DNA of 33,275 bases from Candidatus Peribacteraceae bacterium (GTDB lineage Bacteria; Patescibacteriota; Gracilibacteria; Peribacterales; Peribacteraceae), in the NCBI GenBank assembly GCA_028711345.1, contig JAQTSK010000014.1:1-33275 (forward strand), given 5' to 3'. The translations under genes and the position numbers were made by a program. Of the stretch, positions 26,792-28,754 are shown one piece after another. Within the stretch, counting starts at the first letter, position 1. Each line of letters opens with the position of its first letter. Below the pieces are notes generated by a model. The model did not search any database, was not told the DNA's origin, and worked only from the letters and a program-made list of their open reading frames with translations.

Positions 26792-27961
26792 TTATTTTTG
26801 AATCGGAATCCACCTGATTCTTGCATCCCTCCTCCACCACGTCATGTGCCGCTTGGCATAGGCCCGTGTTTTCAATGCAATCTCATCTGATAATGATTTG
26901 ACATGCGGACTGTGCGCGTTTTGCAGCGGCAACTCGAAAGTCGCCTCATTGTTATGCCGGGATCCGCAGCGGTTTTCGAACCGCTGCTGCGATTGTTGCA
27001 AATACCCGACGATTTCCCTGTACCCGATACTCTTCATCCCCGGATCATCGACGGAATAACCGCGATCGAGCAACTGCCGGACTTCGTCGATCCAGCCGGA
27101 CTCCATCATCAACTTTGTTCTATCGTTGATCCTCATATTCAACTCTTCCCGCGGAACATCCATGCCGAATATCAGCAAATCATACGGTGAAACAGCTTCA
27201 ATCTTCTGCACTGACTTCGGCTTGCCGGTCTGCTCAAAGATTTCCAGTGCGCGCAGAAGATAGACCTTGTTCTCCCGCGGAATGGATGCGGCGGACTGCG
27301 GATCCACTTGAGCCAGACGACGATGCAATGCCTCCCCCTGATCGATGTCATACTCTTCGCTCAGACGCGTACGCAATGCCGGATCGGACGGAAGAGGCTT
27401 GAGCCCGTCGACCATCGCCGAGACATACAGCATCGATCCGCCGACGAGTACGGGGATGTTTCCGCGGCCATGGATCTCGCCGATGACCCTTGCCGCTTCC
27501 TTCTGAAACCATGCGATGGAACACGGCTCCTTGGGATCGAGTACGGAAAGAAGATGATGAGGAATGCCGTGCATCTCCTCCGGTGTGATCTTGGCCGTTC
27601 CGATATCCATGAAACGATAGAACTGTCTGGAATCGGCATTGATGATCTCTGCTGACGCCGCAGGAAGAAAGCCTGCTCCGCTTTTCATAGGAACCTCTGA
27701 AAAAGGAAGAAAAGTTGTCATGGTGAGCGGAGTCGAACCATGACAACGAGCCAAAATGTTCATCCTTCGACTCCGCTCAGGATGACATTTTGGTAGTTTT
27801 TCAGAGGTTCCCATAGATAATGCCAGATTCACTGAGAACATTGTCTTGCCGCTCGCCGTCGGACCGATGACGACAATCAGAGGTTTATCAGGAGAGTATC
27901 CGAGAAACTCCCGAAGAATCTTGAAAGGATTTTGCGCGTCTGAAAGCGGTGAAGATAACAT
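26792..27961 (-). CDS. miaA: tRNA dimethylallyltransferase (MiaA) carrying an in-frame palindromic insertion
   Basis: VVIGPTASGKTMFSVNLALS, AEIINADSRQFYRFMDIGTAKITPEE, PHHLLSVLDP, VLVGGSMLYVSAMVDGL; insertion GTSEKLPKCHPERSRRM...FSEVPM. Confidence 0.9.
   Translation of the reverse strand: MLSSPLSDAQNPFKILREFLGYSPDKPLIVVIGPTASGKTMFSVNLALSMGTSEKLPKCHPERSRRMNILARCHGSTPLTMTTFLPFSEVPMKSGAGFLPAASAEIINADSRQFYRFMDIGTAKITPEEMHGIPHHLLSVLDPKEPCSIAWFQKEAARVIGEIHGRGNIPVLVGGSMLYVSAMVDGLKPLPSDPALRTRLSEEYDIDQGEALHRRLAQVDPQSAASIPRENKVYLLRALEIFEQTGKPKSVQKIEAVSPYDLLIFGMDVPREELNMRINDRTKLMMESGWIDEVRQLLDRGYSVDDPGMKSIGYREIVGYLQQSQQRFENRCGSRHNNEATFELPLQNAHSPHVKSLSDEIALKTRAYAKRHMTWWRRDARIRWIPIQK
27690..27811. mobile_element. 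MITE-like palindromic element, 15-bp perfect TIRs, 4-bp TSD (CATA), inside miaA
   Basis: TIR ggaacctctgaaaaa 27690-27704 / tttttcagaggttcc 27797-27811; cata at 27686-27689 and 27812-27815; 122+4 = 126 bp = 42 codons. Confidence 0.8.
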
Positions 27962-28100
27962 GATAAGTAAACTAATCTTAGTACGATCCAACAACAATCG
28001 GAAATAGTGAACACTGACCGATTCTCTGCATCTACGGTATACTAACTGCAGAAAAGAAAAATACTTTTCAATGTTCAATTATCAATTTTCCATTCTTCCC

Positions 28101-28754
28101 ATGCATCCCCAGATTCAGTCGATCGCCCAAGGTATCTCCCGCGGATACATCACGCCGCACAGCGACGTTCTTGTCCCGACCGTCATCGAGAAAACACCGA
28201 TGGGAGAGCGCGCCTACGACATCTACTCCAGATTGCTGGAGGAGCGCATCATCTTCCTCGGCACGCAGATCAACGATGCGGTCGCCAACACCGTCATCGC
28301 GCAGTTCCTCTTCCTCGAGAAGCAGGATCCGAAGAAGGACATCATCTTCTACGTGAACTCTCCCGGCGGACAGGTCAGTTCGACGCTTGCGATGTACGAC
28401 ACCATGCAGCTCATCACGCCGGACGTATCGACGGTGTGTCTGGGCATGGCAGCCTCCGGTGCGGCGATCATTCTGATGGGTGGCGCCAAGGGAAAACGGT
28501 TCGCACTCCCCCACTCCGAAATCATGATCCATCAGCCGCTGGGCGGCACGGAAGGACAGGCGACGGACATCGCCATCCACGCGGATCACATCATCAAGAC
28601 GAAGGACATGCTCAACGAGATGATCGCGAAGCACTCCGGCCAGAAGATCGCGAAAGTGAAGATCGACACCGAGCGCGACAAATTCATGACGGCTGACGAG
28701 GCACTCGCCTACGGACTGGTCGATAAGATCATCACGAGGAAGGACACGCTGTAG
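28101..28754 (+). CDS. clpP: ATP-dependent Clp protease proteolytic subunit
   Basis: [66 protein letters not shown]; Ser/His/Asp triad positions present. Confidence 0.95.

Follow-up and report, generated by a model that had tools for sequence, protein, structure and literature searches.

The frame encoding MiaA in the window (the 33,275-nucleotide stretch of DNA analysed here, from a Candidatus Peribacteraceae bacterium) remains open through a 122-bp palindromic insert, which raises the question of what kind of element this is, what could have moved it and whether MiaA can accommodate it. Very probably the segment is a non-autonomous MITE of the IS5 type, with an inverted REP-like doublet as its core, through which the MiaA frame stays open. 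The source genome (G000) is a draft assembly of 1.77 Mb in 93 contigs, and its miaA was clearly identified by protein family models (TIGR00174, E 1.7e-69; PF01715, 7.1e-75). The features discussed are listed in Table 1.

Table 1. Features of the miaA region, in window positions, and sites of a second carrier elsewhere in the genome
Feature	Position	Strand	Evidence or remark
miaA, 389 aa, open through the insert	26792..27961	-	only miaA found in the genome
Composite MITE, 122 bp	27690..27811	- (miaA sense)	9 genome copies, 3 identical
TIR GGAACCTCTGAAAAA	27690..27704	+	sequence; near-identical TIR on IS5-family element G000:C6:47709-48901
TIR GGAACCTCTGAAAAA	27797..27811	-	sequence; exact reverse complement of 27690-27704
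TSD CATA, copy 1	27686..27689	.	sequence; 4-bp TSDs at other copies
TSD CATA, copy 2	27812..27815	.	sequence
REP-like hairpin, CATGG type	27716..27745	+	loop 27725-27736 GAGCGGAGTCGA; stand-alone elsewhere in the genome too
REP-like hairpin, CATCC type	27752..27793	-	loop 27767-27778 TCGACTCCGCTC; outer CCAAAA/TTTTGG stem; compensatory stem changes
Divergent neighbour gene, ClpP-like by sequence	28071..28754	+	matches ORF beside miaA in same-genus genome
Second-carrier sites (G000)	L011 C80:16449; L012 C66:5281; L020/L022 C72:5050/C23:21; L026 C48:22486		

The inserted element and its folds

An earlier note on this DNA had described a 122-bp insert with perfect 15-bp TIRs, flanked on both sides by CATA, and direct reading of the sequence bore this out. 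The insert and one copy of the TSD together add 126 bp, or 42 codons, to MiaA, and the 12-nt loops of its two hairpins (GAGCGGAGTCGA and TCGACTCCGCTC) are exact reverse complements, both as the note had stated. Its two hairpins stand as an alternative fold of the element, the lowest-energy fold being instead a single long hairpin of the whole element. Compared with dinucleotide shuffles, the fold z-scores were -7.9 as RNA and -9.8 as DNA. With up to three mismatches allowed, the 15-mer GGAACCTCTGAAAAA is expected 1.1 times per window; two perfect copies facing each other were observed, and this pair is far beyond chance.

Of the element's six reading frames, just one lacks stop codons, and miaA uses this one. 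In the mechanism that we propose, an IS5 transposase would bind the TIRs and place the element into a target of 4 bp. The miaA copy would have landed at CATA in the sole stop-free orientation and phase, and the 122 bp together with 4 bp of duplicated target would preserve the frame.

A draft in 93 contigs that contains a repeated 122-bp sequence could in principle have been assembled by joining repeat copies wrongly, but both flanks of the insert make up one miaA frame with a matching TSD. Since miaA and its divergent neighbour lie in the same order in a same-genus genome, a chimeric join is further argued against, and we regard such an artefact as extremely improbable.

Copies, target duplications and a candidate transposase

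A search of 380 genomes of the phylum for the exact TIR-pair pattern returned five matches in this genome, three in G069, one in G070 and none in any of the others, and the reversed control pattern gave no match in the same genome search. The further genomic copies for which the earlier note had called were found, with TSDs of their own: there are nine copies in the genome, seven of them with matching 4-bp duplications (CATA, CTAA, TTCA, TTAA, TAAG, TTAA and TTAG). Three copies (miaA, C21:16989 and C6:14326) are 100% identical, indicating that the MITE was recently mobile, and the insertion in miaA itself looks recent. Others are 94-97% identical; one copy has a REP loop lengthened by 30 bases, and there are two decayed copies. 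The element thus occurs as multiple dispersed copies that have no coding capacity for a transposase, as is usual for a MITE. The copy in miaA appears to be the sole intragenic one, the remaining eight apparently being intergenic; the copy at C6:53399 is covered by a 163-aa frame, judged spurious because it overlaps a preceding 410-aa ORF on the opposite strand. No relatives of the element were found in plasmid and phage collections.

Target duplications of IS5-family elements follow a YTAR rule. Most copies have TTAA, TTAG, CTAA or CTAG, in agreement with this type, the exceptions to strict YTAR being CATA, TTCA and TAAG. The composites from other genera are flanked by CTAG, CTAA, TTAA and TTAG.

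An IS with nearly the same TIR, another find for which the earlier note had called, is present in a single genome copy of 1,193 bp (C6:47709-48901). Its TIRs are GGAAACTCTGAAAAA and GGAACCTCTGATGAA, its TSD is TTAG, and it encodes a 326-aa transposase that scores 322 bits against the IS5_4 model NF033581 (cut-off 140). The MITE TIR differs from the two ends of this IS by one and two mismatches, a sharing of TIRs of the kind seen between IS5-family elements and their MITEs. In another genome of the same order (G049), a transposase that is 86% identical lies between the TIRs GGAACCTCTGAAAAA and GGAACCTCTGAACAT, one of which matches the MITE TIR with 0 mismatches. These ends make the C6 element the likely source of transposase for the MITE. 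The assignment rests on the TIR and the TSD because the C6 IS and the MITE have in common only about the first 15 bp, with mismatches. The IS5_4 transposase was not detected in three genomes that bear composites (G069, G070 and G018).

G069 itself has no fewer than five TIR composites (L173, L174, L175, L176 and L181), among which two or more types of REP loop occur. In the two decayed copies of the source genome (L008, C8:48766; L009, C56:24266) the CATGG hairpin has a longer and different loop, of the GAGCCCTTCGGCAAGCTCAGGATAAACTCCGTCGA type. A solo MITE end lies beside a TTAG/CTAAG-like flank at C91:6000-6035 (L058:1000-1035), apparently as the remnant, about 30 bp long, of an internal deletion.

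A REP-like doublet as the core

The interior of the element is an inverted pair of REP-like hairpins. Without these TIRs, this interior is also found at many places, both in this genome and in relatives, and the hairpins likewise occur within TIR composites of two other genera. The miaA element is therefore a composite, in which the REP-like doublet, missed by the earlier note, exists independently of the TIRs. A single pattern search for the loop counted 54 exact units genome-wide, grouped into 36 sites. All 17 inverted pairs analysed combine one hairpin of the CATCC type with a partner of the CATGG type or a near variant, and the variable loop base is concordant between the arms in every pair (nine G/G, eight T/T and none mixed; Fisher P = 4e-5, uncorrected for shared ancestry).

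When 14 composites from three genera were aligned, 11 pairs had changed on both sides in the form with local hairpins and eight in the form with loop-loop pairing. Three pairs within each count belong to the TIR stem, which is common to both forms. In both, covariation exceeded that in column shuffles and slid controls. Because compensatory changes support each form, the whole-element hairpin is maintained as well as the two local ones, through selection for pairing or through copying from arm to arm. The REP cores would accordingly stay palindromic either because their spread depends on pairing or because changes in one arm are transferred to the other by strand switching during replication.

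Other flanks, CAATTC..ACAAAGGC and TTGATTGAGTGTC..GGAAATGG, with weak terminal complementarity, are shared by the REP doublets of four or five sites (L011, L012, L020/L022 and L026), which suggests another composite. An identical 30-nt palindrome (around TTCGCGAACGCCAGTG) occupies the same position in the REP loop in L026 and in the IS5-type copy at C77:57575 (L007:1502-1653). This suggests that REP units pass from one carrier to another, either by insertion or by recombination.

The presence of REP doublets and singlets without these TIRs at many sites, in a genome with five Y1_Tnp matches, could mean that the mobile unit is the doublet itself, a REPIN moved by a RAYT (Y1_Tnp), and that the TIR-like ends are merely part of a long REPIN. 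Single-strand Y1 transposases, however, make neither 4-bp target duplications nor exact TIR ends, both of which are seen at the TIR-bearing copies, and the TIR matches an IS5 element. Nor was the REP motif, searched as one motif in flanks of about 1-2 kb, found at any of the 20 Y1_Tnp loci inspected. We consider it very improbable that a RAYT moved this element, and it is not filed as a REPIN because no REPs were found flanking the RAYT-type loci inspected.

Movement as an IS5-type MITE agrees better with these ends, and the element combines traits of several known systems. Like IS5-family MITEs, it is short and non-coding, with IS5-family TIRs and a 4-bp, mostly YTAR-like TSD; unlike them, it has as its core a REP doublet that is found elsewhere in the genome, not an internal deletion of the IS. 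REPINs are defined as inverted REP doublets that fold into a hairpin (PMC3116915), and the core of the miaA element does consist of two inverted REPs able to fold into one hairpin. It differs from REPINs in its 12-nt loops, in lacking a GTAG tag and in that some members of the population sit within IS5-type TIRs. In the GTAG REP superfamily the tag marks one end and the loops are mostly short (PMC3733652), whereas the hairpins described here start with TGTCA and have loops of 12 nt. Nested REPs have precedents in Coxiella QMITE2, where a MITE carries a REP (PMC5896051), and in A. variabilis, where REP dimers lie within long palindromes (PMC3733652); the miaA element resembles both. QMITE2 has direct repeats of 7-11 nt and is located for the most part in intergenic DNA or 3' UTRs, with in-frame cases in hypothetical proteins (PMC5896051), in contrast to the conserved miaA in which the present element lies.

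MiaA and other genes with in-frame palindromes

Comparison with homologues agrees with the earlier note in placing the insert after the P-loop helix and before the DSRQ strand of MiaA, where the protein reads ...LALSM-GTSEKLPKCHPERSRRMNILARCHGSTPLTMTTFLPFSEVPM-KSG.... The P-loop GKT and DSRQ are separated by 17-33 residues in homologues, versus 69 here (27 + 42). For the empty site that the note had proposed to look for, the comparison is at species distance only: the insert is absent from MiaA of the same genus (69% identity, 23 residues between GKT and DSRQ) and from the other homologues measured. In an AlphaFold model (AF2, 16 sequences) residues 55-100 had pLDDT below 50 and most blocks of the core had means of 83-96, and the top matches of the model in a fold comparison were crystal structures of MiaA (3exa, 3foz and 2zm5). 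Since the loop between alpha-1 and beta-2 varies in length, MiaA with the insert probably still folds, with the 42 added residues as a disordered loop. It is plausible that MiaA tolerates the insert, because helix alpha-1 of P-loop folds ends on the side away from the nucleotide site.

The open frame could instead be the luck of a recent insertion into a miaA that is inactivated and drifting: identity to other copies implies recency, and one insertion in six would be open by chance. Against this, MiaA is otherwise intact and preserves the columns that are invariant in 16 homologues, this is the sole miaA found in the genome, and further REPs within core genes keep the frame too. A drifting gene is thus unlikely. 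That the insert has been co-opted, its added peptide or its mRNA hairpin regulating or changing MiaA, would fit the strength of that hairpin (-58.2 kcal/mol, z -7.9) and the number of in-frame REP hosts that modify tRNA or rRNA (MiaA, MnmA, RsmF-type and TsaD, by simple count). But two intergenic copies have exactly the same sequence as the insert, which has therefore accumulated no host-specific change, and the added peptide is predicted to be disordered; we think co-option very unlikely.

REP sites were tested for open frames spanning them, and stand-alone REPs or doublets were found in-frame in ProB, an RsmF-type rRNA methyltransferase, MnmA and AroDE of this genome. The match of ProB to solved glutamate kinases is interrupted at about residues 65-94, and that of the RsmF-type protein at 126-169. 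An unassigned 556-aa membrane protein is a further such host, and a 733-aa open frame that reaches the edge of the examined stretch is a possible further case. In a relative (G042) a REP doublet lies within TsaD. Six hosts are thus named, and by simple count four of them modify tRNA or rRNA, the others being ProB and AroDE. In-frame insertion of REPs is recurrent in this genome, and the counts are lower bounds because relatives were scanned in one reading frame only. Seven long frames over REPs in relatives (L213, L214, L215, L218, L219, L220 and L221) were set aside by eye, either because the REP was at the edge of the frame or because the frame looked antisense to real genes.

The earlier note had likened the element to Rickettsia palindromic elements (RPEs), and as a description of behaviour this holds, given the further REP palindromes in-frame in other genes. 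RPEs are palindromic, about 150 bp long and found in-frame in unrelated protein genes, such fusions being reportedly frequent (PMC10969869), and recurrent in-frame presence in unrelated genes is what the present family shares with them. Unlike RPEs, the miaA element has clear IS5-type TIRs, TSDs and a candidate transposase, and it belongs to another lineage; the likeness would be one of behaviour, not of ancestry. Intragenic REPs are known in several species, including in tRNA pseudouridine synthase genes (PMC3733652).

In-frame palindromes in genes (in Rickettsia and as REPs), in-frame MITEs and a REP inside a MITE are thus already known. What is new is an IS5-type MITE with a REP-doublet body, in-frame in a conserved tRNA-modification gene, and its setting, a genome with repeated in-frame occurrences of the same palindromes. 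A literature search found no description of the peptide HPERSRR or of the REP-core motif, and nothing on MITEs together with the Candidate Phyla Radiation. The findings extend the Rickettsia-type case, mobile palindromes encoding peptides in conserved proteins, to a distant lineage with small genomes, one in which a candidate transposase, target duplications and recent copies that are nearly identical can all be seen. This makes two questions testable, namely how REP doublets spread without a partner RAYT and whether proteins tolerate or use the inserts.

Tentatively, and at somewhat less than even odds, the REP-doublet family may spread both alone and as cargo within terminal repeats of the IS5 type or the second kind, with a sizeable share kept in-frame in conserved genes. 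If so, many of the in-frame hosts would be RNA-modification genes, and the family would keep supplying new protein loops outside Rickettsia. The findings also suggest that CHPERSRR and CHGSTPLTMT peptides in environmental proteins may derive from these palindromes. A separate repeated motif close to AAAACCTGTGGTGAGCGWAGCCGAACCAT was seen near the starts of open frames at three places in the source genome (L237, C9:3823; L239, C44:174; L241, C63:23971).
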